From Synergistota bacterium (GTDB lineage Bacteria > Synergistota > GBS-1): 61,698 bases of DNA. Every line of letters starts with the position of its first letter. The first letter of the stretch is position 1. The stretch covers positions 1-61,698 of the forward strand of contig JANXBX010000011.1 of assembly GCA_025060595.1 (NCBI GenBank). The letters are read 5' to 3'. This document shows positions 16,469 to 29,726 of this stretch, one piece after another. Below the pieces are notes generated by a model, which was not told the origin of the DNA, made no database searches, and saw only the letters and a program-made list of their open reading frames with translations. The position numbers and the translations under genes were made by a program.

Positions 16469-17236
16469 TCAATATGCATAAAGCCTTCCATAAGGACGGT
16501 GCGATTGAGGATAAAGCTTAATAAAAGGCTTATTCGTTATTACATTAAAATCAAGAGAAAAGTACTCACAGAAGTCTTTTAAATGTTTTTCAAACAACTT
16601 AAAATCTTCATCCTTTGCAACAGTTACACCTACTTCTCTACCCCAAATTACATTTTCTACGCTTCCTCGAATAAATATGCTTCCCCCATGCATTCCAGTC
16701 CCAACAAAATCTCCTACCACTCTTCTCTCGTCAGAATCCAACCCTAGAACTACTATTAAGCCTCCAGCCATATATTCTCCTAAAAAATCACCTGTAGATC
16801 CTCCTATTACTATAACAGGAAAATGCTCCTTATAAGCTTTCATATGTATACCTACCCTATACCCAACGTTCCCTTTTACAAATATTCTTCCACCCCTCAT
16901 GGAATAACCTACTATATCACCAGCATCACCGCAAATCACCACCTCTCCGGAATTCATGGTATTACCAACCCCATCTTGAGCATTCCCTAAAACTATAATC
17001 TTAGAACCATCCATAAACGCCGCTAAGTCATTACCCGGGGTGCCTTTTATGAATATGCCTACGTTTTCTTCACTTAAACCACACCCTATATACCTTTGTC
17101 CAATAACATTATCAATAAAAATTTCTTTAACTCCACTCTTTATAGCATCATGAATCATTTCATTCAAAATTCTATAGTGAAGACCATCCGCACGTATTAA
17201 ATAATCTATCTTCTCCATTTTCCCCATAAAGCTCAT
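16469..17236 (-). CDS. Glutamate synthase GXGXG-domain subunit (archaeal-type, GltB C-terminal domain)
   Basis: A 255-residue right-handed beta-helix protein equal to the C-terminal structural domain of bacterial GltB. It shows the repeated glycine pattern GNAQDGVGNTMNSGEVVICGDAGDIVG-type turns, then RGGRIFVKGNVGYRVG and GTGMHGGSIFIRG, and related repeats also occur in formylmethanofuran dehydrogenase subunit C. In the fragmented glutamate synthase this domain is a separate gene. ATGA overlap with the upstream FAD protein gene shows cotranscription. Last gene of the five-gene cluster. The close alternative is a formylmethanofuran-dehydrogenase-like protein, but the neighbours argue for glutamate synthase. 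Confidence 0.9.
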   Translation of the reverse strand: MSFMGKMEKIDYLIRADGLHYRILNEMIHDAIKSGVKEIFIDNVIGQRYIGCGLSEENVGIFIKGTPGNDLAAFMDGSKIIVLGNAQDGVGNTMNSGEVVICGDAGDIVGYSMRGGRIFVKGNVGYRVGIHMKAYKEHFPVIVIGGSTGDFLGEYMAGGLIVVLGLDSDERRVVGDFVGTGMHGGSIFIRGSVENVIWGREVGVTVAKDEDFKLFEKHLKDFCEYFSLDFNVITNKPFIKLYPQSHRPYGRLYAY

Positions 17237-18525
17237 ACTTCAATCACCTCTCCCACAACCATATGTTTTCTATAATTTTTAGGTAGAACTAAAAAACCAA
17301 AATCATCTTTAAGTAATTCCTCTTTAAAAGGAGAAACCTCTAAACCAAACCTCAAAAGTCCAAGAAATATCCCTGCTCTATCTATTCTTCCCAAAAAAAT
17401 ACCCCCTATTACTTTTCCATCTTTTATCACTATCTTACGATATAAAGGTGCTTTACTTTCCTTTCTCACTAAAACTTCGTACCCGTCTAGGTCAACGGGA
17501 TTGGATATTCCAAAGGATATTACGGGAATACCGGCTATTTCAACTGAATTCATCGCAAAAAGCCCATCATATTTGGTTTCCTTTCCAGCCATATTAAATC
17601 CCGCAACCCTACCTTGACGAAAAGCCACTGGCCATAAGGCTAATACCTCACTATTCGAATTTAAAAAACTTTTCGCTTGAACAACGTCTCCAGCTGCATA
17701 TATCTCTTTTATATTGGTTTGCATATAATCATTTACAACGATTCCCCTATCATAATTTATAGGAGTATCTTTTATTAGATCCAAATTGGGCCTTACTCCA
17801 ATAGCGATAACAAGGAGTGCAGTTTCAATCATCTCTCCACTTCTCAAATACACTTTTTTCAAAATCCCATTATCACCAGAAACAGAAACAATCGTATCCT
17901 CCTTCACCACACTACACCCCAAGTTTGCTAAAGCTCTTTCTAATATGCCAGATGCCTCGATGTCCAAAGTGTTCGGAAGAATTCTATCAGCAAGCTCTAT
18001 AATAGTAACCCTCATCCCTCTCGCCACAAGACCTTCTGCTGCCTTAAGTCCTATTAATCCTCCCCCTAAAACCACAGCAGAATTTATGTTATTTAACTTT
18101 ATATAATCAAGCATAGCCTTTGTATCAGAAAGCTTCGTAAAAGTAAAGATCCCATCTTTTATATCATTAATACCACCTATTGTAGGAATTATGGGCTTAC
18201 CACCTGTGGATATAAGCAATTTTTCAAATCTTATAACTGTTTCATCGGATAAAAAAACTAAACGCTCGTTAACATTAAGCTTCTGAGCTTTTTTCCCTAA
18301 AATTAGCTTTACACCATTTTTAGAGTAAAAATCTTTTTCTCTAAAGTAGATATTTCCTTCGTCTATCTTACCTCCAAGATAGTAAGATATCAGTGGTCTA
18401 GAATAGTTATAAACTTTTTCATCGGAAACCACAGTTAAAGAACCATTTTTGTCCTCTTCTCTTATAGATTCGATAGCTGCTATAGCAGCTACCGAATTTC
18501 CAACTATTAAATATTTACTTTCCAT
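17233..18525 (-). CDS. FAD/NAD(P)-dependent oxidoreductase of the glutamate synthase cluster
   Basis: A 430-residue pyridine-nucleotide oxidoreductase. The N-terminal FAD-binding strand-turn reads VGNSVAAIAAIESI, with Asn and Ala in place of the usual glycines. The NAD-binding motif VLGGGLIGLKAAEGL is near 153-167, and the second FAD motif IYAAGDVV near 275. It most resembles NADH oxidase and nitrite-reductase-like flavoproteins. It overlaps the iron-sulfur gene by 11 nt. I infer that it feeds electrons from NAD(P)H through the Fe-S protein to the FMN subunit, replacing GltD. Confidence 0.88.
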   Translation of the reverse strand: MESKYLIVGNSVAAIAAIESIREEDKNGSLTVVSDEKVYNYSRPLISYYLGGKIDEGNIYFREKDFYSKNGVKLILGKKAQKLNVNERLVFLSDETVIRFEKLLISTGGKPIIPTIGGINDIKDGIFTFTKLSDTKAMLDYIKLNNINSAVVLGGGLIGLKAAEGLVARGMRVTIIELADRILPNTLDIEASGILERALANLGCSVVKEDTIVSVSGDNGILKKVYLRSGEMIETALLVIAIGVRPNLDLIKDTPINYDRGIVVNDYMQTNIKEIYAAGDVVQAKSFLNSNSEVLALWPVAFRQGRVAGFNMAGKETKYDGLFAMNSVEIAGIPVISFGISNPVDLDGYEVLVRKESKAPLYRKIVIKDGKVIGGIFLGRIDRAGIFLGLLRFGLEVSPFKEELLKDDFGFLVLPKNYRKHMVVGEVIEV

Positions 18526-19009
18526 CAGTTAAACCCTCCTTCGATACTTTCTTACCCATATAATCAACCAAAACAAGAGCTTCATTAGGACAATGTTCAA
18601 CACACGCAGGAAAACCAGCATCAATACACAAATCGCACTTAGAGGCAACCTTTTTCTCCTCGTGATCCGGCTTTATAACGCCATAAGGGCAAACCATTAT
18701 ACACATCCAACATCCTACGCACTTACTCCTATTATTTAAAATCTTACTAGTCACAGGATCCCTATACATAGCCCCACTAATACAAGCTTCGATGCAAGGA
18801 GCATCTTCACAATGCCTACATTGAAGGGCAAATGAAGTTGGCCCCCTTTCTTCAAAACATATGCCAGAAACAGGTCTGGGTTCCTCTCCTTTAAAAACCT
18901 TTAAAATATTCTTAGACTTAGAGTGCTGAACTACACAATGAACTTCACATAACCTGCACCCCATGCAATACTCCTCTTTCGCAAGAATTCTCTTAAATTT
19001 TTCTACCAT
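18515..19009 (-). CDS. 4Fe-4S ferredoxin-type electron-transfer subunit
   Basis: A 164-residue protein with cysteines for four 4Fe-4S clusters, in the style of HycB/CooF or DMSO reductase B. The motifs are CMGCRLCEVHC, CRHCEDAPCIEAC, CVGCWMCIMVCPYG and CDLCIDAGFPACVEHCP. ATG at 19007-19009 follows GGGAG and overlaps the FMN subunit gene; a longer frame to 19024 is less likely. It stands between the FMN subunit and the FAD protein, so it probably carries electrons between them. Confidence 0.92.
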   Translation of the reverse strand: MVEKFKRILAKEEYCMGCRLCEVHCVVQHSKSKNILKVFKGEEPRPVSGICFEERGPTSFALQCRHCEDAPCIEACISGAMYRDPVTSKILNNRSKCVGCWMCIMVCPYGVIKPDHEEKKVASKCDLCIDAGFPACVEHCPNEALVLVDYMGKKVSKEGLTDGK

Positions 19010-20490
19010 TGCTCTCCCACGCATTTTACTCCTAATAACCCCCTTTCGGTTTCCGTCAAACCAACAGCCCTCAACTGCTCCCTATTCCCCCTTAGGGACT
19101 CTATAGCATTTATTCCCATTCCACCCAACATTTCTTTGATTTCCAAAGACCAAGCTCTCAAAAGGTTATAAGCCCTCTTGGCACCTATATCGGGATTTAA
19201 TCTCTTTGTGAGATACGGATCCTGAGTAGCTATTCCCCAATTACACCTACCGGTGTAACACTTCTGACACAAGTGACACCCTAAAGCGATCAAAGCTGCA
19301 GTAGCTATATAAACAGCATCAGCACCTAATGCTATAGCTTTTATAACATCAGCTGAACTTCTAAACCCCCCAGCAGCTATTATGCTTGCACAATGCCTTA
19401 TACCTTCCTCTCTAAGTCTTTGATCTACAACAGCTATAGCCATCTCTATAGGTATACCAACGTTGTCCCTTATAACTGTAGGAGCCGCTCCTGTACCACC
19501 TCTTATACCGTCTATAACTACAAAATCCGCACCTGCTCTTACTATTCCAGAAGCAATAGCTGCAACATTATGAACTGCTGCTATCTTAACCCCAACAGGT
19601 TTTTTATACCTCGTAGCCTCTTTAAGAGCGAAAATCAGCTGTCGTAAATCTTCTATAGAGTAAATATCATGGTGTGGTGCAGGACTAATAGCATCACTTC
19701 CTACAGGAATCATCCTCGTCTTTGACACTTCCTCACTTACTTTCTCTCCCGGAAGATGTCCACCAATACCAGGTTTAGCCCCCTGACCTATTTTTATCTC
19801 TATAGCAGCACCTACTTCTAGATACTCTTTGTTAACTCCGAAACGCCCAGAAGCAACCTGAACTATAGCTCTATCAGCATAAGGTTTAAGCTCTGAATGT
19901 AATCCCCCTTCACCAGTGTTCCAATACGTTCCGAAATTACAGGCAGCCTTAGCCAAAGACTTACAAGCATTTAAAGAGATAGAACCATAACTCATTGCAG
20001 AAAACATTATAGGTACCTCAAGCTCAAGCTGAGGTGGAATAGAAGACATAAATCTGTCAGGCTTACGTCCTAAAAAGGTTTTAAGCTCCATAGGTTCTCT
20101 AATTGGATCAATAGAAGGGTTAGTAACCTGTGCCGCATTTAAGACAAGATGCCTAAAGTAATCTCTATAAGGTCTATCGCAGCCCATCCCACTTAACAAA
20201 ATACCACCCGTTTCAGCCTGTTTTATAAGATCATAAACATCCCTATCTGACCAGTGGAAATTACTCCTAATTCTCAACTGATTTCCAACAATAGCTATCG
20301 CACTCGTCGGACAAAGATCCTCACAAAAATGACAACCAACACACTTAGTGCTATCAGAGATAACCAGATTCATCTCTGGATAATAAGAGTGAACATCAAA
20401 AGCGCACATCCTCACACAAACTTGACAATGTATACATTTACTCTCGTCCCTCTCTACATTAAATTCAGACCTATACCTTGCCTTGGCCAT
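19003..20490 (-). CDS. Glutamate synthase FMN/Fe-S catalytic subunit (archaeal type)
   Basis: Reduces 2-oxoglutarate plus ammonia to glutamate. 495 residues. Two N-terminal 4Fe-4S motifs (CIHCQVCVRMC and CVGCHFCEDLCP, within residues ~17-60) are followed by the FMN barrel of GltB: SYGSISLNA, NTGEGG, KIGQGAKPGIGGHLPG, SPAPHHDIYSIEDL, VDGIRGGTGAAP (here IDGIRGGTGAAP) and GADAVYIATAALIALGC. The 3Fe-4S site CHLCQKCYTGRCNWGIATQ closes the domain. This ferredoxin-fused, glutaminase-free layout is the archaeal/Thermotoga form. It lies 3 nt after the amidotransferase gene, and the two must work together. Confidence 0.95.
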   Translation of the reverse strand: MAKARYRSEFNVERDESKCIHCQVCVRMCAFDVHSYYPEMNLVISDSTKCVGCHFCEDLCPTSAIAIVGNQLRIRSNFHWSDRDVYDLIKQAETGGILLSGMGCDRPYRDYFRHLVLNAAQVTNPSIDPIREPMELKTFLGRKPDRFMSSIPPQLELEVPIMFSAMSYGSISLNACKSLAKAACNFGTYWNTGEGGLHSELKPYADRAIVQVASGRFGVNKEYLEVGAAIEIKIGQGAKPGIGGHLPGEKVSEEVSKTRMIPVGSDAISPAPHHDIYSIEDLRQLIFALKEATRYKKPVGVKIAAVHNVAAIASGIVRAGADFVVIDGIRGGTGAAPTVIRDNVGIPIEMAIAVVDQRLREEGIRHCASIIAAGGFRSSADVIKAIALGADAVYIATAALIALGCHLCQKCYTGRCNWGIATQDPYLTKRLNPDIGAKRAYNLLRAWSLEIKEMLGGMGINAIESLRGNREQLRAVGLTETERGLLGVKCVGEQW

Positions 20491-20493
20491 TTT

Positions 20494-21585
20494 TTATCCC
20501 TCCACCTTACCAATAACAGGCTCACCAGCCTTTGGCATCCAAACTTTTTCTAGACCATTAGAAATCGCTCGTATAGCTGACTCTTCAGAAGCTATATATA
20601 AAAAATCTCCTCCTTTAGCAGCTACAAGAGGCCTTAACTTAGTCCTATCATTTAAACCAATCATATAATGTGAATTAGCAATTACTACAGCAAAAGGTCC
20701 ATTAACAAGAGCAGGGCCATAGATTATTCTCAATAATTTCAGAAACTCCTTTTTACTTTCATCTTCTATTTTTTCTATCTGAGACCAGAAAGGGGCTGAA
20801 AGAATATTTGCTACAACATCAAAAGAAAGACCATGTTTACGAACTAACAAATCAAACAAATAGACTAAAACTTCCGTATCAGTCGAGAAAGTACAATAGT
20901 ATCCAAAACCCTCTAAGTACCTCTTATTCACTCCATAGGATGATATTTCTCCATTATGAACTAAAGCCCAATCAAGTATTCCAAATGGATGCGCTCCTCC
21001 CCACCAACCAGGCGTGTTTGTCGGAAACCTATTGTGAGCTATCCATAAATAGCCTCTATATTCCGGAATCTTATAAAACTCTCCCATTACTTCAGGGTCT
21101 CCAACTCCTTTAAAAATACCCATGTTCTTACCAGAAGAAAATATACAAGCCCCGTCTATTTTTCTATTTATCTTCATGACACTGTGAACTATATCTTCTT
21201 CCACACTTTCACTTTCTCTAAAACTAATAAAATATCTCCAGAGTAAAGGAACATTCTCAACAACATTTACCTTCTTAACAGATATAGGTTCATGATAAAC
21301 AATAATAAAGTTGCTCTTTAAATAATCCTCAACAACACACTTAGCCGATTCTGTATAATACATTATATGAAAGCACCAATAATCCTTAAACTCGGGATAA
21401 ATTCCATAACCCGCAAAACCACTGCCTAATCCATTTCCACGCTCACGCATGCAACAAATAGAATTTAAAATAAGTTCCCCCGAAAAAGATTCACCCTTTT
21501 GATTCATTACCCCTACAACTCCACAACCTGATGGATTTCTCAACTCTCGGTCAAAAAACAACCTTTTAAAATCAACTCCGCTCAT
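20494..21585 (-). CDS. Glutamate synthase glutamine amidotransferase subunit (class II)
   Basis: Releases ammonia from glutamine for the FMN subunit. An Ntn-hydrolase of 363 residues. The nucleophile is Cys21 in PSGCGVVGVM, so 20 residues must be removed by self-processing, as in GltB-type enzymes. Further motifs are HNRFPTNTPGWWGGAHPFG, LVHNGEISSYG, FSTDTEVLVYL and GPFAVVIA. The ATG is 8 nt after GGAGGAG. First gene of the five-gene cluster under its own promoter. Confidence 0.93.
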   Translation of the reverse strand: MSGVDFKRLFFDRELRNPSGCGVVGVMNQKGESFSGELILNSICCMRERGNGLGSGFAGYGIYPEFKDYWCFHIMYYTESAKCVVEDYLKSNFIIVYHEPISVKKVNVVENVPLLWRYFISFRESESVEEDIVHSVMKINRKIDGACIFSSGKNMGIFKGVGDPEVMGEFYKIPEYRGYLWIAHNRFPTNTPGWWGGAHPFGILDWALVHNGEISSYGVNKRYLEGFGYYCTFSTDTEVLVYLFDLLVRKHGLSFDVVANILSAPFWSQIEKIEDESKKEFLKLLRIIYGPALVNGPFAVVIANSHYMIGLNDRTKLRPLVAAKGGDFLYIASEESAIRAISNGLEKVWMPKAGEPVIGKVEG

Positions 21586-21622
21586 CCTTACATCTCCTCC
21601 ATCTAAATAATATTAGTTATTA

Positions 21623-21651
21623 ATTTTAATATAACTATAATATTAAGTCAA
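21623..21651 (-). promoter_or_regulatory. Promoter of the glutamate synthase cluster
   Basis: TTGACT (21646-21651), 17-bp spacer, TAAAAT (21623-21628), about 35 nt upstream of the first gene. Unlike glnA and amt it has a good -35 and no 11-bp repeats, so this cluster looks constitutive or otherwise controlled. Confidence 0.7.
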
Positions 21652-22059
21652 GGCATCAAAAAGAATTTTATAAAACAGCATGTAAGGTATTTTGAAGCAA
21701 GATTTAATAGCATCTTATCAATATTGACAAAGATGCTTTCATACTTAAAATGTATTTCCTCTCCTATCACTCTAGTATCACAAAATAACCCATAGCCTCT
21801 CTTCTTTCCATTGCAGAATAAGAATTTAAAAGCTTTTACAATTCTTGAAACCCCTTTTAGCTTAGCTAGGGAATTAATTAGCCTTCCTCACACTAGCCAT
21901 TGATTCTTTATTTAAAACTTTCTTAAAAGTTCTTTACCTTCAAAAGAATAATAACTTCCTGTTACTCTTCTATAACGTATTCTAAATATACTTCCAATAA
22001 GGCTTATCACTTCCATAAACATCCTTGATAAAAGTTAATTATAATAAGCCTAAAATACC
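21652..22059. other. Non-coding stretch between glutamate synthase and trp promoters
   Basis: About 400 AT-rich bases without a credible gene. A plus-strand promoter-like pair TTGACA (21724-21729), 16-bp spacer, TAAAAT (21746-21751) could make a short RNA, but I see no clear terminator or conserved fold after it. Small inverted repeats (around AAAAGCTTTT and AACTTT/AAAGTT) are no more than expected in such sequence. Confidence 0.4.
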
Positions 22060-22088
22060 TTGACAGAGAGAAGAATAACTTGTATAAT
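22060..22088 (+). promoter_or_regulatory. trp operon promoter
   Basis: A perfect consensus: TTGACA (22060-22065), 17-bp spacer, TATAAT (22083-22088). Transcription should start near 22095, giving a leader of ~236 nt to the trpE start. Such a strong promoter needs the downstream attenuator to set expression. No Trp-repressor-like palindrome is evident. Confidence 0.92.
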
Positions 22089-22114
22089 TATTCTTAAATC
22101 AGGAGGAGAAAAAG

Positions 22115-22210
22115 ATGAGAAATTTTTATTCTTGCACAGTAAAGAAATCTAAAGTAAATTGGTGGTGGCAGGCTTTCAGCCTGCCGCGGGTTTATTCCTG
22201 CTATAAATAA
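22115..22210 (+). CDS. trpL: trp leader peptide (TrpL), 31 residues with three consecutive Trp
   Basis: A short frame with its own strong ribosome site (AGGAGGAG, 22101-22108) starts at ATG 22115. Residues 16-18 are WWW (codons 22160-22168), followed by QAFSLP, and the frame ends at TAA 22208-22210. The Trp codons lie at the base and 5' arm of the first leader hairpin. This is the classic design in which a ribosome stalled for charged tRNA-Trp frees the antiterminator. No other leader function fits three tandem Trp codons directly before trpE. Confidence 0.93.
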   Translation: MRNFYSCTVKKSKVNWWWQAFSLPRVYSCYK

Positions 22211-22258
22211 ATTTTAAAAAGCAGGGCCGCGGCAGAAAATGCCGCGGCCCTTTTACTG
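22167..22258 (+). promoter_or_regulatory. trp attenuator: mutually exclusive hairpins 1:2, 2:3 and 3:4
   Basis: Stem 1:2 pairs GGCAGGC (22167-22173) with GCCTGCC (22179-22185). Antiterminator 2:3 pairs CTGCCGCGG (22181-22189) with CCGCGGCAG (22227-22235), a perfect 9 bp. Terminator 3:4 pairs GGGCCGCGGCA (22224-22234) with TGCCGCGGCCC (22240-22250), a perfect 11 bp with loop GAAAA followed by TTTT. Segments 2 and 3 are shared, so only 1:2 plus 3:4, or 2:3 alone, can form. Confidence 0.92.
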
Positions 22259-22271
22259 CTTTTTAAACTTT

Positions 22272-22304
22272 AAAAGGGCCGCTTCGTAAGAGAGCGGCCC
22301 TTTT
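22272..22304 (+). terminator. Second terminator just before trpE
   Basis: Perfect 12-bp stem AAAAGGGCCGCT (22272-22283) / AGCGGCCCTTTT (22293-22304) with a 9-nt loop, then AATTTT. It reuses the GGGCCGC and GCGGCCCTTTT words of the first terminator, so it might also pair across with it. It ends 26 nt before the trpE start. Confidence 0.88.
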
Positions 22305-22330
22305 AATTTTCTTAAGTGGAGGTGAGTAAA

Positions 22331-23803
22331 GTGGAGAAGAGAGAAGATTTAGTAACCCTATACACGACTCTACCCCTATATTCAGAAATCCTCAAACAAG
22401 AGTTCATTAAAGACTTTTTCTCAGATACGAGCCATTCATTTATTATGAGCATCGATAAATCCTACCGAGGAGGTAAAAGGTACACTTATATTAGCAAAAA
22501 CCCTCAAAAGCTATTTAAGCTTTTTAAGAAAAATGGAAAATTTTATTACGAAGTTAACGGTATAACTTATGAGGACAAAGGTAATGACTTTGAAAAAGTT
22601 CTTGAAGAAGAAACTCGAAAACAAACCAATTTCAAAGATTTCCCCCCTTTTTACGGAGGATTATTTGGCTACATATCTTATGAAATTATCGAAAAATGGG
22701 AAGAAATATATCATATGGAGCCTAACAAAAGATTTAAAACATCTTCTATCCCAATAGCGTATTTAGGTCTTTTCAATAATATCATTGCCATAGATCACGA
22801 AGAAAAAAAACTGTATCTAATTAAAAATCTCGAAAAAGAAAAAAGTGAAAATGGACTTTTAGAATTACTTAAGGAAGCCTCCCTTTTAATAGAGAAACAG
22901 TCTAAAACAGAACAAGCAAGTGAAAAATCTAAATACCTCTATATCAAGGGACTTTCTTCAAATATTTCTAAAGAAGGCTTCCTAAAAATGGTTGAAAAAG
23001 CAAAAGATCATATTATTGCTGGAGATATATTCCAAATAGTTCTCTCTCAGAAATTTTCCTTCGAAAGCAATATAGATCCTTTAGATCTATTTTTTGCTCT
23101 CCAAGAGGAAAATCCATCCCCTTACATGTTTCTAATAAACTTCCCAGAAATAAAAATAATAGGCTCTTCACCTGAAATCCTAGTAGAAATAAAGGACAAA
23201 AAGGTAATTACGAGACCTCTTGCCGGAACAAGAAAAAGAGGGAAAAACGCTGAAGAAGACAAGAGAATAGAAAAAGAGCTTCTCGAAGATCAGAAAGAGA
23301 GAGCAGAACACGTAATGCTCGTCGACCTAGCCAGAAATGACCTTGGAAGAGTATGCAAACCTGGAAGCGTAAAAACCTCAGACCTAATGAAAATAGAGTA
23401 CTATCCTCATGTAATGCATATAGCCTCCCAAGTAGAGGGGGACCTTATAGAAAGCAAAAACCCAATCGATGTTTTAAAAGCTACTTTTCCCGCCGGAACG
23501 GTAACAGGAGCACCAAAAATAAGAGCAATGGAGCTAATAAATGATATTGAAAAAGAAGCAAGAGGGCCATACGCCGGTGCAGTAGGTTATATAAGTTTTT
23601 CCGGCGATATGGAAATGTGCATAACTATCAGAAGTCTTTACCTATATAATGGCAGATTTCATGTTCAGGCAGGAGCCGGAATAGTTGCCGACTCTAATCC
23701 AGAATCAGAGTACAAGGAAACCCTATATAAAGCAATGGGTCCTCTTAAAGCCCTAAAAAGAGCTTTAGAAAAGAATAGAATAAAAGAAACTATCAAAAAC
23801 TAA
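22331..23803 (+). CDS. trpE: Anthranilate synthase component I
   Basis: Makes anthranilate from chorismate, the first step of tryptophan synthesis. 490 residues with the chorismate-enzyme core [60 protein letters not shown] and [10 protein letters not shown]. Ala in PLAGTR marks TrpE rather than PabB, which has Lys there. The N-terminal region that carries the LLES tryptophan-feedback motif in enteric TrpE reads FIMSIDKS here, so feedback contacts may differ. GTG at 22331 follows GGAGGTGAG; an upstream in-frame GTG at 22316 has no ribosome site. First structural gene of trpEGDCFBA. Confidence 0.96.
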
Positions 23804-23817
23804 AGGGGGGGAATAAG

Positions 23818-24414
23818 ATGATTCTAGTGATAGACAATTATGATTCTTTTACCTATAACCTGGTTCAATATCTTTTAGAATTTGATGATGTCATAGTATT
23901 TAGAAATGATAAGGTTAGCTTAAGAGAGATAAACGAAATAAAACCATCTCACATAGTAATATCTCCTGGACCCGGAAATCCAAATGATGCTGGAATATCC
24001 AATGAGGTTATTAAGAGTTTCTATAGATATATTCCCATATTAGGAATATGTCTAGGACACCAATGTATAGGATATGTATTTGGAGGTATTATCGGAAGAG
24101 CTAAAATCCCCATGCATGGGAAAACATCTTTTATCTACCACTCTAATAAGGGAATTCTACATAATATACCCTCCCCTTTCTTAGCTACAAGATACCACTC
24201 CTTAGTTGTTAAACAGGATCACCTACCAAAAATCCTTGAGATTATAGCTGAAACTGAAGATGGTGAAATTATGGGAATAATGCATAAGGATTTCCCTACA
24301 TTCGGACTTCAATTTCATCCAGAATCTGTATTAACTTCCGAAGGAAAAAAGATATTGGAAAACTTTCTTAAACTTAACCCTATAAAGAGAGGTGAACTAA
24401 ACAATGTTCGATGA
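23818..24414 (+). CDS. trpG: Anthranilate synthase component II (glutamine amidotransferase)
   Basis: Supplies ammonia from glutamine to TrpE. A class I amidotransferase of 198 residues with the triad Cys78 in GICLGHQ, His167 and Glu169 in QFHPES, and the oxyanion motif SPGPGNP. It is not fused to trpD. It lies 14 nt after trpE and overlaps trpD by 11 nt. It might also serve a PabB elsewhere, as in Bacillus, but the operon position makes TrpG its main role. Confidence 0.95.
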   Translation: MILVIDNYDSFTYNLVQYLLEFDDVIVFRNDKVSLREINEIKPSHIVISPGPGNPNDAGISNEVIKSFYRYIPILGICLGHQCIGYVFGGIIGRAKIPMHGKTSFIYHSNKGILHNIPSPFLATRYHSLVVKQDHLPKILEIIAETEDGEIMGIMHKDFPTFGLQFHPESVLTSEGKKILENFLKLNPIKRGELNNVR

Positions 24415-25432
24415 GTTATACAAAGATTCACTAGAGAAAATATTAGAAGGAAAGCATCTTTCATTCCAGGAAACAGCCACCTTAATGGAAGCTATAGTAA
24501 CAGGAGTATTGACAAACATTCAAGTAGGAGCATTACTAATAGCTTTAAGAGCAAAAGGAGAAACCCCAGAAGAGATAAGTGGAGCAGCAAAGACACTTCT
24601 TGAAAAATCCATCAAGATTAATGTAAGTAAGGATATTTTAGTAGATACATGCGGAACCGGTGGAGATATGCTAAAAACTTTTAATATATCAACTATTGTT
24701 GCTTTAGTCTGTGCAGCCGCCGGAATACCCATAGCTAAACATGGCAATAGATCTGTGTCAAGCGAGAGTGGAAGTGCAGACCTGCTTTCGGAACTGGGAG
24801 TTAAAATAGAACTTTCTCCAGAGAAGATAAAACAATCTATTGAGGAAATTAACATCGGTTTCATCTTTGCTCCTGCTTATCACACCGCAATGAAAAACGT
24901 TGCTCCTATTAGAAAAGAACTTAAAACAAGGACTATGTTTAATCTACTAGGACCATTGATTAATCCAGCTTTTCCAACTCATCAACTACTTGGCGTATAT
25001 GATGAAAGGCTCCTTAAAACCGTCGCTCAAACACTTAAAAATTTGGGGAGAAAAAGGGCTATGGTGGTTCACGGAAGCGGCGCTGATGAGCTATGCACAT
25101 GGGGGATCAATAAGGTAGCGTTACTATCGGAAGATGGAGCTATAGAAGAATTCAGTTTCTACCCAGAAGAAGTAGGAATTAAGAGAAGCCGTTTAGAAGA
25201 CATAAGAGGAGGAAAACCCTCTGAAAATGCTATTATCGCTCTAAAGATTTTAAATGGGGAAAAAGGAGCTAAACGAGACATTGTTTTACTTAATGCAGGA
25301 GCGGTTTTCATGCTCGTAGGGTTAACAGAAACAATTCAAGAAGGTATAAAGATTGCAGCCGAAGTAATTGATAGTGGAAAAGCCAAAGAAAAACTCAAAG
25401 AGCTTATAAAACTCTCTAAGGAGATGAACTAG
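24404..25432 (+). CDS. trpD: Anthranilate phosphoribosyltransferase
   Basis: Joins anthranilate with phosphoribosyl pyrophosphate. 342 residues, the usual length. The N-terminal helical part has the SFQETATLMEAIVTG region. The PRPP loop is DTCGTGGDMLKTFNIST (about 82-98), and KHGNRSVSSESGSADLLSELG and RTMFNLLGPLINPA are typical family motifs. Starts inside the end of trpG and ends 2 nt before trpC, with all signs of tight coupling. Confidence 0.97.
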   Translation: MFDELYKDSLEKILEGKHLSFQETATLMEAIVTGVLTNIQVGALLIALRAKGETPEEISGAAKTLLEKSIKINVSKDILVDTCGTGGDMLKTFNISTIVALVCAAAGIPIAKHGNRSVSSESGSADLLSELGVKIELSPEKIKQSIEEINIGFIFAPAYHTAMKNVAPIRKELKTRTMFNLLGPLINPAFPTHQLLGVYDERLLKTVAQTLKNLGRKRAMVVHGSGADELCTWGINKVALLSEDGAIEEFSFYPEEVGIKRSRLEDIRGGKPSENAIIALKILNGEKGAKRDIVLLNAGAVFMLVGLTETIQEGIKIAAEVIDSGKAKEKLKELIKLSKEMN

Positions 25433-25434
25433 AT

Positions 25435-26178
25435 ATGAAAAAAAATATTATCTCGGATATAATTAAAAATAAAGAAAAATTATTAAAATTAAAGAAAAAT
25501 GATTCTCTTTCTGTATTTAAAAGAAAAAGCTTCTTTTTAATAGGAGAAATCAAAATTTCTTCACCATCTACAGGGGTCATAAACCCAAACCTTAATGTAA
25601 AAACTCAAGTAGAAGCTTATGAGAAAGGAGGAGCAAGCGCTATTTCCGTAGTTACAGAAGAATGCTTTTTTGGGGGAAGTTTGGAACTGTTGAAGAAAGT
25701 AAAGGAACTAACGAATCTCCCTATACTTAGAAAGGACTTCATAATAGACAAGCTTCAGATATATGAAAGCTTCTTTTATGGAGCTGATATTCTCCTCCTT
25801 ATTAGTTCCATACTATCTCTAGCTAAACTTAAATCCTTTATAAGGCTTTGCCAGGATCTCGGCTTAACCCCTCTTGTAGAGGTACATACAGAAGAAGATC
25901 TTGAAAAAGCGTTCAAAGCAGGAGCAAGACTAATAGGAATAAATAACAGAAACCTTGAAACGCTTGAAGTATCTATAGAAAATACTTTAAAACTAATGCC
26001 AATACTTAATAGATTCTCAAAAAACAAAGACATCTTAGTAATTTCAGAAAGCGGAATAAGCTCACGAGAAGATGTTAAATTGCTTAAAAGCATTGGAGTC
26101 AATGGAATACTTGTAGGTTTTTCTCTTTTAACTGCTGAAGATCCATTAAGAAAAATAAAAGAGCTCTTAGAACCTTAG
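25435..26178 (+). CDS. trpC: Indole-3-glycerol phosphate synthase
   Basis: Closes the indole ring from carboxyphenylaminodeoxyribulose phosphate. A 247-residue TIM barrel with EIKISSPSTGVI (catalytic Glu/Lys strand), ISVVTEECFFGGS, PILRKDFIID, GINNRNLETLEV and ISESGISSREDV. Not fused to trpF. An AT-rich N-terminus full of lysine codons follows a short AAGGAG-like site in the trpD end. Confidence 0.96.
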   Translation: MKKNIISDIIKNKEKLLKLKKNDSLSVFKRKSFFLIGEIKISSPSTGVINPNLNVKTQVEAYEKGGASAISVVTEECFFGGSLELLKKVKELTNLPILRKDFIIDKLQIYESFFYGADILLLISSILSLAKLKSFIRLCQDLGLTPLVEVHTEEDLEKAFKAGARLIGINNRNLETLEVSIENTLKLMPILNRFSKNKDILVISESGISSREDVKLLKSIGVNGILVGFSLLTAEDPLRKIKELLEP

Positions 26179-26185
26179 AAGTAAA

Positions 26186-26809
26186 ATGCTTAAGGTAAAA
26201 ATATGCGGGATTAAAAGAGAAGAAGATCTCAAAAAAGCAATAGAGCTAGGTTTTGATGCTATAGGTTTCATATTATGTCAAAGCAATAGACAAATAACTC
26301 TTGAGAAGGCTTTGAATCTCTCAAGCCTAGTGCCTCCTTTTGTATCTCTAGTAGCTGTAGTCAAAGATCCAACTCCCAATGAAATAGAAAATATAATTAA
26401 AGCAAGAATCTTTACATATATTCAATTCCATGGCGAGGAAAGCCCAGAAACTCTTGAAAAAGTTCCGATAAAAAGAATAAAAACCATAGCTATAAGGAAC
26501 GAAAATGACTTAATGATAACTAAACTTTACTTAAAAGTAGCAGATCTCTTTTTATTTGATACTAAGCTTGGGGAAAAAACAGGAGGTACAGGAAGATCTT
26601 TCGATTGGCTAATACTTAAAAAATACGATCGAAGTAAACCTTTTATCTTAGCTGGGGGCATAGGAATTCATAATGTTAAGAAAGCAGTGGAAAGCGTTTT
26701 TCCAAATGCGATAGATGTTAACAGCTCTTTAGAAATAGAACCTGGTATAAAGGATCATCAAAAGATGGAAAAACTTATGAAAATAATTAAAGAAATAAAG
26801 GGAGGATGA
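26186..26809 (+). CDS. trpF: Phosphoribosylanthranilate isomerase
   Basis: Isomerises phosphoribosylanthranilate before ring closure by TrpC. A 207-residue barrel with the catalytic Cys7 in KVKICGIKRE and the catalytic Asp in LFDTKLG, plus GGTGRSFDWL and FILAGGIG for phosphate binding. Genes on both sides are a few bases away. The gene order C-F as separate frames is normal outside enteric bacteria. Confidence 0.96.
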   Translation: MLKVKICGIKREEDLKKAIELGFDAIGFILCQSNRQITLEKALNLSSLVPPFVSLVAVVKDPTPNEIENIIKARIFTYIQFHGEESPETLEKVPIKRIKTIAIRNENDLMITKLYLKVADLFLFDTKLGEKTGGTGRSFDWLILKKYDRSKPFILAGGIGIHNVKKAVESVFPNAIDVNSSLEIEPGIKDHQKMEKLMKIIKEIKGG

Positions 26810-26812
26810 AAT

Positions 26813-28015
26813 ATGGTATATTTAAATGAAAAAAGAGGATATTTTGGAAGCTTTGGAGGAAGATTTGTTCCAGAAACTTTAATTCCAGCATTAGAAGAGT
26901 TAGAAAACATATACTTTTCTTTAAAAGATGATCCTTCTTTTAAAGAGGAACTTGAATCTTTACTCAGAGATTATTGTGGTAGACCAACACCCCTATATTA
27001 TGCAGAAAGACTCTCCAAAGAATATGGAAAGGGTAAAATTTACTTCAAACGAGAGGATTTAGTACATACAGGAGCTCATAAAATAAACAACGCTATAGGA
27101 CAAATACTTCTTGCTAAGAGAATGAAGAAAAAAAGAATAATAGCAGAAACTGGAGCAGGTCAACATGGTGTCGCAGTTGCCACAGTGTGCGCGAAGCTTA
27201 ATCTGGAGTGTTGTATCTACATGGGAGAGGAAGACATAGAAAGACAAAAGCTTAATGTTTATAAAATGAGAATGCTAGGAGCAAGAGTTATATCTGTATC
27301 ATCAGGAAGTAAAACTTTAAAAGACGCCACTAATGAAGCAATGAGAGACTGGGTATCAAATATAGAAACAACTTACTATCTTATAGGATCTGTTGTAGGC
27401 CCTCATCCTTATCCAACTATAGTAAGGGACTTTCAGAAAGTAATTGGGGAAGAAACAAAAAAACAAATTTTAGAAAAGGAAGGAAAGCTTCCAAACTACA
27501 TAATAGCCTGTGTTGGGGGAGGAAGCAACGCTATAGGAATGTTCTATCCCTTTATAAGTGACTTAGAAGTAAAGCTAGTAGGTGTTGAAGCAGGAGGGAA
27601 AGGACTTGCTTCAGGCCTTCATGCAGCATCACTTAATGCGGGTAAAGTAGGAGTCCTTCACGGATGTAAATCCTATGTTTTACAAGATGAAAATGGGCAA
27701 ATAATTAATCCCTACTCCATATCAGCGGGTTTAGATTATCCTGGAGTAGGACCAGAACATGCCTTCCTTAAAGAAATCAAGAGAGCAATTTATGTCACAA
27801 TTAATGATGAAGAAGCCCTTGAAGCAGCAATGATAACTACCAAAACTGAGGGAATCATACCTGCTCTTGAAAGTGCTCATGCTATAGCCTATGCTATAAA
27901 ACTATTAAGAGAAATTAGTAACAATGATATTATAGTTGTTAATCTCTCAGGAAGAGGAGACAAAGATATGCCTACACTAATCAAAAGGTTTAAGTTGGAA
28001 GGTGATGAAAAATGA
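26813..28015 (+). CDS. trpB: Tryptophan synthase beta chain
   Basis: Condenses indole with serine using pyridoxal phosphate. 400 residues of the TrpB1 type: [13 protein letters not shown] at the N-terminus, PLP lysine K90 in [18 protein letters not shown], the phosphate-binding [10 protein letters not shown], and [13 protein letters not shown]. The match to TrpB1 and the adjacent trpA mean a normal alpha-beta complex with indole tunnelling. Ends in an ATGA overlap with trpA. Confidence 0.98.
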
Positions 28016-28818
28016 ACAAAGAAATTAGTTTTAACAATATATTTTCAAGAGGAAAGGTTCTAATACCTTTCATTACAGCTGGATATCCTAATTTAAATTT
28101 ATTTGAGAAAATAATTAGAAACTTATACCAAAGTGGTGCAGACATAATAGAAATAGGCATACCCTTCTCAGACCCACTTGCAGATGGGGTAACTATTCAA
28201 AAATCAAACCAAACTGTCTTAAAACAAGGGATTAATCTTAGGTTAATCTTATCGAGAATATCCAGGATTTCTCAAGAGATTACTTCCCCAATAGTTATAA
28301 TGAGCTACTATAATCCTATTCTATCTTACGGAATTAAAAAATTTATAAATGATGCAAAAGAATCTGGTATTTCAGGAATCATAGTTCCAGATTTACCCTT
28401 TGACGAAAGGGAACCGCTATACTCTATGGCTAAAGAGAAGAACATAAAAACTATACTTATGATAACTCCTGTTACACCTTTAGAAAGAGTTAGAGAAATT
28501 ATTAAACACGGAGATGGTTTTATATACTGCGTATCACTTATAGGAATAACAGGAGATAGTAAAAAACCCTTATTTAGCTGGATATCTCAAGATTTACCAA
28601 ACATACGCAAGTTATCACCTCTACCTATAATCTTAGGTTTTGGAATAGATTCTCCAGAAACAGCACAAAAAGTTTCGCCATACGTAGACGGAATCGTAGT
28701 AGGAAGTGCACTAATAAAAAAGATAGATAACCTTATTAAATCAAGCATTGACGAAAACAGACTACTTAGAGAGATCGAATATTTTATAAGAAGTTTAAAA
28801 TTAGCAATAACTTCTTAA
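28012..28818 (+). CDS. trpA: Tryptophan synthase alpha chain
   Basis: Releases indole from indole-glycerol phosphate and passes it to TrpB. A 268-residue barrel with catalytic Glu47 in [11 protein letters not shown] and Asp58 in PLADGV, the family motif [11 protein letters not shown], and [11 protein letters not shown]. The start codon overlaps the trpB stop (ATGA). It is the last gene of the operon. Only a weak CCAA/TTGG hairpin followed by TTTT (about 28832-28846) could end transcription. Confidence 0.97.
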
Positions 28819-28878
28819 CCTCTTATACCCCAACAGTTGGTTTTATTCCTAACTACTATAGATTTCAATTGGCTCAGA

Positions 28879-28887
28879 TGTTATAAT
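28879..28887 (+). promoter_or_regulatory. Extended -10 promoter of cheR
   Basis: TGTTATAAT (28879-28887) is a perfect extended -10 element. The -35 region (TAGATT near 28859) is poor, which is usual for extended -10 promoters. It lies about 38 bp before the cheR start. Confidence 0.6.
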
Positions 28888-28925
28888 TTTAAAAGTAAAA
28901 ACTAAAAATCGGGGAGGATCAAAGC

Positions 28926-29726
28926 ATGATAAAAGAGGATTTTACCCTTTTCCCTAAAGAATACGAAGATTTTAAGAAAAAGTTTTTAGAGATATCAGGA
29001 ATAGATTTGAACTTTTACAAGCATCAAATTCACAGAAGGGTTCACATGTTTATGAAAAGATGGAACATAGGGAACTATGAAGAGCTTTTTAAGTTAATAA
29101 AAACTGACAAGGAAAAATATAAGTCATTCGTTGATTATCTTACAATAAATGTTTCCGAGTTTTTCAGAAACCCAGAGAGATTTGAGATTCTTGAAAAAGA
29201 AATTATCCCTCTTACTATGAAACCTGATAAATCTATAAAAATATGGAGCGCTGGCTGCTCTACAGGAGAAGAACCATACTCTCTAGCAATCATATTGGAG
29301 GACCTAAAGATGAAGAAAACCCCTCGCATCCTTGCTACTGATATAGATCCTAACGCACTAGAAAAAGCAAAGCAGGGAATATACGATATTAAACAACTAC
29401 AAAATGTTAACCCTGAACGCCTCAAAAACTATTTTATCAAAAAGGGGGAAAATCTCTACGAGGTAAATAACAATATCAAGGAAAGAGTAGAATTTAAAAG
29501 GCATGACCTTCTTAATGATCCCTTCGATAAAGATTTTGACCTTATACTTTGCAGAAATGTAGTAATATACTTTGAAAAGGAAATAAAAGACAAACTTTAC
29601 CAAAAATTTAGAGATGCTCTCCGAATAGGGGGAGTACTAATGGTAGGGAATACCGAACAAATATTTGGATATAGAGAAATAGGTTTTAAGTCAATCAAGC
29701 CATTTTTTTATCAGCGCATCAAGTAG
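28926..29726 (+). CDS. cheR: Chemotaxis-type protein-glutamate O-methyltransferase (CheR)
   Basis: Methylates glutamates of chemoreceptors with S-adenosylmethionine. 266 residues: an N-terminal helical CheR domain (to ~75), then the methyltransferase with WSAGCSTGEEPYSLA (SAM loop), ILATDIDPNALEKA, and DLILCRNVVIYFE. The beta-subdomain and the VGNTE element are present. Ribosome site GGGGAGG is well placed. No receptor, cheA or cheB is in the window. It stands alone and converges with the carbonic anhydrase gene, overlapping it by 16 nt. It may act in taxis or in a Che-like signalling system elsewhere. Confidence 0.95.
   Translation: MIKEDFTLFPKEYEDFKKKFLEISGIDLNFYKHQIHRRVHMFMKRWNIGNYEELFKLIKTDKEKYKSFVDYLTINVSEFFRNPERFEILEKEIIPLTMKPDKSIKIWSAGCSTGEEPYSLAIILEDLKMKKTPRILATDIDPNALEKAKQGIYDIKQLQNVNPERLKNYFIKKGENLYEVNNNIKERVEFKRHDLLNDPFDKDFDLILCRNVVIYFEKEIKDKLYQKFRDALRIGGVLMVGNTEQIFGYREIGFKSIKPFFYQRIK

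Follow-up and report, generated by a model that had tools for sequence, protein, structure and literature searches.

Textbook attenuation uses one terminator, which is leaky. Chained alternative helices, under the name 'chains of RNA helices', were reportedly proposed for some amino-acid attenuators by Lopatovskaya, Seliverstov and Lyubetsky in 2010 (cited in PMC4833913), and this concept, compared by description only, may cover the design presented here. In the ermK leader of Bacillus licheniformis, studied by Kwak in 1991 and Choi in 1997 (cited in PMC4335068), stalling on a leader ORF is said to control termination. More than one terminator is reportedly involved. Set beside the present locus by description only, ermK reportedly shares the control of transcription termination by a ribosome stalled on a leader ORF and differs in sensing macrolides instead of Trp-tRNA. 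Two attenuation devices per leader RNA are known from Salmonella mgtCBR, where tandem attenuators with two leader ORFs respond to the independent signals ATP and proline (PMC3641672). The rimP leader carries two tandem terminators and a potential antiterminator, features it has in common with the leader analyzed here; it belongs to another gene with another signal, and the accessible part of the report gives no leader peptide for it (PMC2965389).

The locus lies on contig 11 of a 1.86-Mb genome of a Synergistota bacterium, and the whole 61,698-nucleotide stretch analyzed is referred to as the window. Another genome of the phylum, G019, has a contig that matches a 31,872-bp plasmid of the Synergistota member Thermovirga lienii DSM 17291 (CP003097) at 100% identity over the 20 kb compared, which supports the phylum assignment. 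Promoter, Shine-Dalgarno sequence (SD), leader ORF, attenuator strands, a first terminator (T1), 17 nt, a second terminator (T2), trpE and trpGDCFBA follow each other in this order (Table 1). The consensus promoter noted in a first-pass annotation of the sequence (-35 TTGACA at 22060-22065, 17-nt spacer, TATAAT ending at 22088) matches at 12 of 12 positions, which is unique to the trp leader promoter within the searched region 21601-29000. It recurs in two family relatives having trpE (TrpE identity about 61-63%), with an exact -35, a 17-nt spacer and TATAAT or TATACT at the equivalent position; the NWWW leader and both terminators are kept there as well. The 31-residue leader peptide with its WWW motif, recognized in the same annotation, reads MRNFYSCTVKKSKVNWWWQAFSLPRVYSCYK up to the stop codon, with three adjacent Trp codons at 22160-22168, and the NWWW leader is conserved in the family and the phylum. 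On the minus strand at 17233-21585, a divergent neighbor cluster resembles, from translations alone, a split glutamate synthase, with glutamine amidotransferase-like, ferredoxin-containing synthase-like, ferredoxin and oxidoreductase ORFs.

Table 1 Features of the trp leader region and operon in the window (strands are numbered 1 to 6).
Feature	Position	Strand	Basis
Sigma-70-type promoter TTGACA-17-TATAAT	22060..22088	+	12/12 consensus
Leader-peptide Shine-Dalgarno AGGAGGAG	22101..22108	+	Sequence
Leader peptide ORF, 31 aa, ...NWWWQ...	22115..22210	+	Translation; NWWW[QR] or close form across phylum leaders
Strand 1 GGCAGGCU	22167..22174	+	1:2 pairing with 22178-22185 in fold
Strand 2 AGCCUGCCGCGG...CCUGCU, partner 1 or 3	22178..22202	+	Minimum-energy fold
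Strand 3 AGCAGGGCCGCGGCAG, partner 2 or 4	22220..22235	+	Fold
Terminator 1 (T1, 3:4) including U run	22224..22254	+	Fold, terminator scan
Strand 4 UGCCGCGGCCCUUUU	22240..22254	+	GCGGCCCUUUU (22244-22254) complementary to strand 5
Strand 5 AAAAGGGCCGCUU, partner 4 or 6	22272..22284	+	Pairing comparison
Terminator 2 (T2, 5:6)	22272..22304	+	Fold, terminator scan
Strand 6 GAGCGGCCCUUUU	22292..22304	+	Fold
trpE, likely start GTG 22331, SD GGAGGUGAG 22318-22326	22331..23803	+	Pfam Anth_synt_I_N, Chorismate_bind
trpG, trpD, trpC, trpF, trpB, trpA in that order	23818..28818	+	Pfam

The complete attenuator that had been proposed is borne out by the fold, in which all pairings could be located. The 1:2 helix joins GGCAGGCU with AGCCUGCC (22178-22185). 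The 2:3 helix joins CUGCCGCGG (22181-22189) and CCUGCU (22197-22202) with AGCAGG (22220-22225) and CCGCGGCAG (22227-22235), and is the minimum-energy structure of 22178-22240 (-28.4 kcal/mol). The 3:4 helix is the stem of T1 and joins GGGCCGCGGCA (22224-22234) with UGCCGCGGCCC (22240-22250), followed by UUUU. Folding of the leader RNA 22160-22310 gives a z-score of -9.0, with none of 200 shuffles equally stable. T1 and T2 rank among the most stable terminator-like hairpins of the window and are the sole closely spaced same-strand pair among about 30. At 22211-22264, an outer stem of T1, AAAAAGCAG with CUGCUUUUU, encloses the U run after T1 and ends in a second U run. Because its 5' side overlaps strand 3, this stem would not survive formation of 2:3.

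At the level of sequence and predicted structure, the leader is a ribosome-mediated trp attenuator: a short ORF with an SD carries consecutive Trp codons directly ahead of the hairpins, the 1:2, 2:3 and 3:4 pairings are mutually exclusive, and 3:4 is a predicted intrinsic terminator ahead of Trp genes. With enteric trpL (Rfam RF00513, Trp_leader) it shares the promoter, the consecutive-Trp leader peptide, the three alternative pairings and a U-run terminator before trpE, and it adds a second terminator whose 5' arm is complementary to strand 4. Against RF00513 the leader scores 25.8 bits over the full model length, below the gathering score of 41. Rfam gave no T-box or riboswitch match at the gathering threshold, a tRNA being the sole match in the window. 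In contrast to mgtCBR, there is one ORF, and the 17 nt between T1 (ending at 22254) and T2 (beginning at 22272) are too short to hold a second leader ORF, which separates the leader from the mgtCBR type. We regard the leader as a real ribosome-mediated trp attenuator, its two predicted terminators being well supported, and probably as a little-described variant in which these terminators are coupled by a relay.

The coupling would involve a further pairing. GCGGCCCUUUU (22244-22254), in strand 4, the 3' arm of T1, can form 11 Watson-Crick pairs with its exact complement AAAAGGGCCGC (22272-22282), in strand 5, the 5' arm of T2. When strand 4 was scored for pairing against the 5' arm of each terminator-like hairpin in the window, T2 reached a stem score of 31 and all others at most 18. 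The leader can be described as a six-strand chain, 1-2-3-4-5-6, in which every inner strand can pair with either neighbor. The stop register, 1:2, 3:4 and 5:6, contains both terminators while the go register, 2:3 and 4:5, contains neither. We infer termination at T1 and T2, the sequence of steps and the tryptophan response as follows. With ample Trp-tRNA, the ribosome would pass the Trp codons and make strand 2 unavailable, 3:4 would form and RNA polymerase would halt at T1; polymerases slipping past T1 would encounter 5:6. With scarce Trp-tRNA, the ribosome would stall on WWW and cover strand 1, so that 2:3 forms and strand 4 is left free. Free strand 4 may then capture strand 5 as it emerges, leaving strand 6 without a partner, and a single stalled ribosome would disarm both T1 and T2. 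That the two terminators of this attenuator are coupled by such a relay is, in our judgment, likely. If so, a single sensor would govern two terminators whose stop efficiencies multiply, and full induction would still be possible, a simple route to a wider dynamic range of RNA switches. Tighter repression from two serial terminators, the first-pass suggestion, is plausible but not the whole account, since a second terminator that does not switch would block induction as well. A second switch had also been proposed through 3:6 pairing (22224-22230 with 22294-22300). This complementarity is real, yet strand 3 is engaged by strand 2 in the go register and by strand 4 in the stop register; the stronger and better placed 4:5 pairing is therefore the better candidate.

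Folding was analyzed for 28 representative leaders, which also form the statistical sample for the comparisons below (with a one-per-lineage subset of 18). Before strand 4 is made, 2:3 is favored in all 28, and 4:5 pairs form in every leader once the RNA, with 2:3 held, reaches as far as the end of strand 5. At equilibrium, 3:4 beats 2:3 in the window leader. With 2:3 held at full length, the more stable helix is still 5:6 rather than 4:5 in most leaders, including that of the window, and 4:5 would therefore have to win kinetically, by trapping. By analogy, this demand resembles that on the antiterminator, 2:3 against 3:4, in any such attenuator. The equilibrium preference for 5:6 also suits a different reading, in which a classical four-strand trp attenuator is followed by an independent, leaky backup T2 that does not switch and reduces basal expression by a constant factor, the words shared by the hairpins stemming from duplication of T1 or a common preference for GGCC stems. 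T2 is strong as a stand-alone hairpin, and the 4:5 signal is missing in some lineages, being at or barely above chance in about six of the 28 leaders (G063, G161, G025, G057, G072 and G186). However, a strong T2 that does not switch would set a ceiling on expression during starvation, and a backup predicts neither cognate 4:5 covariation, nor complementarity of T2 loops to strand 4, nor a strand 5 that fits strand 4 better than strand 3 does. We consider an independent backup unlikely.

All three features favoring the relay were seen in the comparison of leaders. When strand 5 was exchanged between families, the contiguous-stem value of cognate 4:5 was reached in 2 of 20,000 derangements and its duplex energy in 141 of 20,000; GGCC-rich words occur in T1 and T2 across the phylum and therefore raise non-cognate pairing too. 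Dinucleotide shuffles of the 28 representatives gave a combined p near 2e-12 for 4:5, which is overstated because the sequences are related. A fixed-register column count on an alignment made by eye yielded 235 Watson-Crick pairs compared with a mean of 201 after reassignment, and none of 20,000 reassignments reached 235; for one sequence per lineage, the observed pairing was reached in 3 of 20,000. The covariation stems from other families, as the 4:5 core word is invariant in the window's own. Covariation among relatives, which the first-pass annotation had named as a check, was found for a pairing absent from it. In the compensatory series f7 (CUUCAAGGC:GCCUUGAAG), f9 (CUUCAUGGC:GUCAUGAAG), f4 (CUUCACGGC:GCCGUGAAG) and f11 (CUUCGCGGC:GCCGCGAGG), the 4:5 words differ by family, the partner changing each time, and complementarity persists. 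In several of these leaders the match of strand 4 extends into the T2 loop, and part of 4:5 lies in that loop in Thermovirga lienii. For f7 and f9, a large share of the match falls within the loop and apical portion of T2, which are dispensable for the terminator itself; T2 loops matching strand 4 are therefore not explained by terminator function alone. In f7, strand 5 makes only Watson-Crick pairs with strand 4 at places where strand 3 has G-U pairs. Taken as a set, the Synergistota sequences indicate that complementarity between strands 4 and 5 is maintained by compensatory change. The variation between families also bears on another reading, in which an RNA-binding protein or elongation factor recognizes the tandem hairpins as an array and acts on both terminators, with the ribosome as one input only. 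Repetition of words in T1 and T2 would fit such an array, as would the two terminators and inverted CCC/GGG motifs of the rimP leader, for which a link to NusA is suggested in the accessible part of the report (PMC2965389). What is kept, however, is complementarity rather than sequence, and the three Trp codons are placed where a stalled ribosome controls strand 1, which makes a recognition array very improbable.

Across Synergistota, 39 leaders with consecutive Trp codons were gathered, nearly all before trpE and a few before trpB, trpC or a transporter gene. Tandem terminators are present in 38 of them (five first terminators were placed by hand), G061 having the sole leader with one terminator only. 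The second terminator before trpE that had been annotated in the window is a strong hairpin and has its counterpart in these leaders. T2 is trailed by U runs in nearly all leaders, as intrinsic terminators require. We therefore give almost no weight to the alternative that T2 does not terminate in vivo but serves as a hairpin for processing or stabilizing the trpE mRNA at its 5' end, even though stable hairpins can protect mRNA ends. Leaders of this kind are best known from Proteobacteria and Actinobacteria, and on this point the first-pass annotation agrees with the accessible parts of PMC2965389 and PMC4833913; the design seen here, however, judged from the sequences, is standard in the phylum and no peculiarity of the window genome. 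Several Synergistota genomes with trpE yielded no such leader, and a pattern search of the phylum found no convincing His leaders of the same design. The single-terminator WWW leader of G061 (L023, minus strand from 1501) precedes a TrpB-like ORF. In G135, a genome with a two-terminator leader before trpE, a second one lies before trpC (L073, 631-811) and has its own 4:5 word, unlike that of the trpE leader. A two-terminator WWW leader in G057 (L035, 1501-1894, minus strand) is followed by a Pfam Na_H_antiporter ORF, possibly a Trp-regulated transporter.

Among 80 trpE loci of other phyla surveyed, both Desulfobacterota loci with a WWW leader (L078 and L149, the latter from Desulfatibacillum alkenivorans) have tandem terminators with CCCACGG:CCGUGGG between them, and the lone WWW leader labeled Bacteroidetes has a single terminator. 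An earlier pattern search presupposed the shared word, and the following counts come from an unbiased TrpE search of 117 genomes of the L149 class. Its best 30 loci gave 24 leaders, of which 21 showed, in a terminator scan, two terminators sharing CCGUGGG/CCCACGG-like words. Among these best loci, 4:5 stems comprise 7 to 15 pairs including G-U, the 4:5 word is nearly constant, and cognate values were reached by permuted pairs in 44 of 20,000 cases for energy and, a weak signal, in 1,202 of 20,000 for the stem. With a near-constant word and a weak stem signal, the Desulfobacterota evidence is one of architecture more than of covariation. The chances seem even that trp control in Synergistota and at least one Desulfobacterota class works as a rule through a six-strand relay, in which one stalled ribosome controls two terminators, and that such a relay is experimentally undescribed. 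In our incomplete coverage of the literature on tandem terminators in leader-peptide attenuators, no relay was found. Novelty is claimed for a variant only, with ermK and the 'chains of RNA helices' set beside it, by description, as the nearest possible precedents. Beyond the usual models, ribosome-mediated trp attenuation appears to be common in two phyla, whose natural sequence variation is large enough for pairing rules to be deduced and for kinetic folding to be put to a direct test. In the Desulfatibacillum alkenivorans leaders L149 and L158, the arms of T2 pair via G-U (GGCCGUGGG with CCUGCGGCC), and the T2 5' arm is Watson-Crick with CCCACGG of T1.
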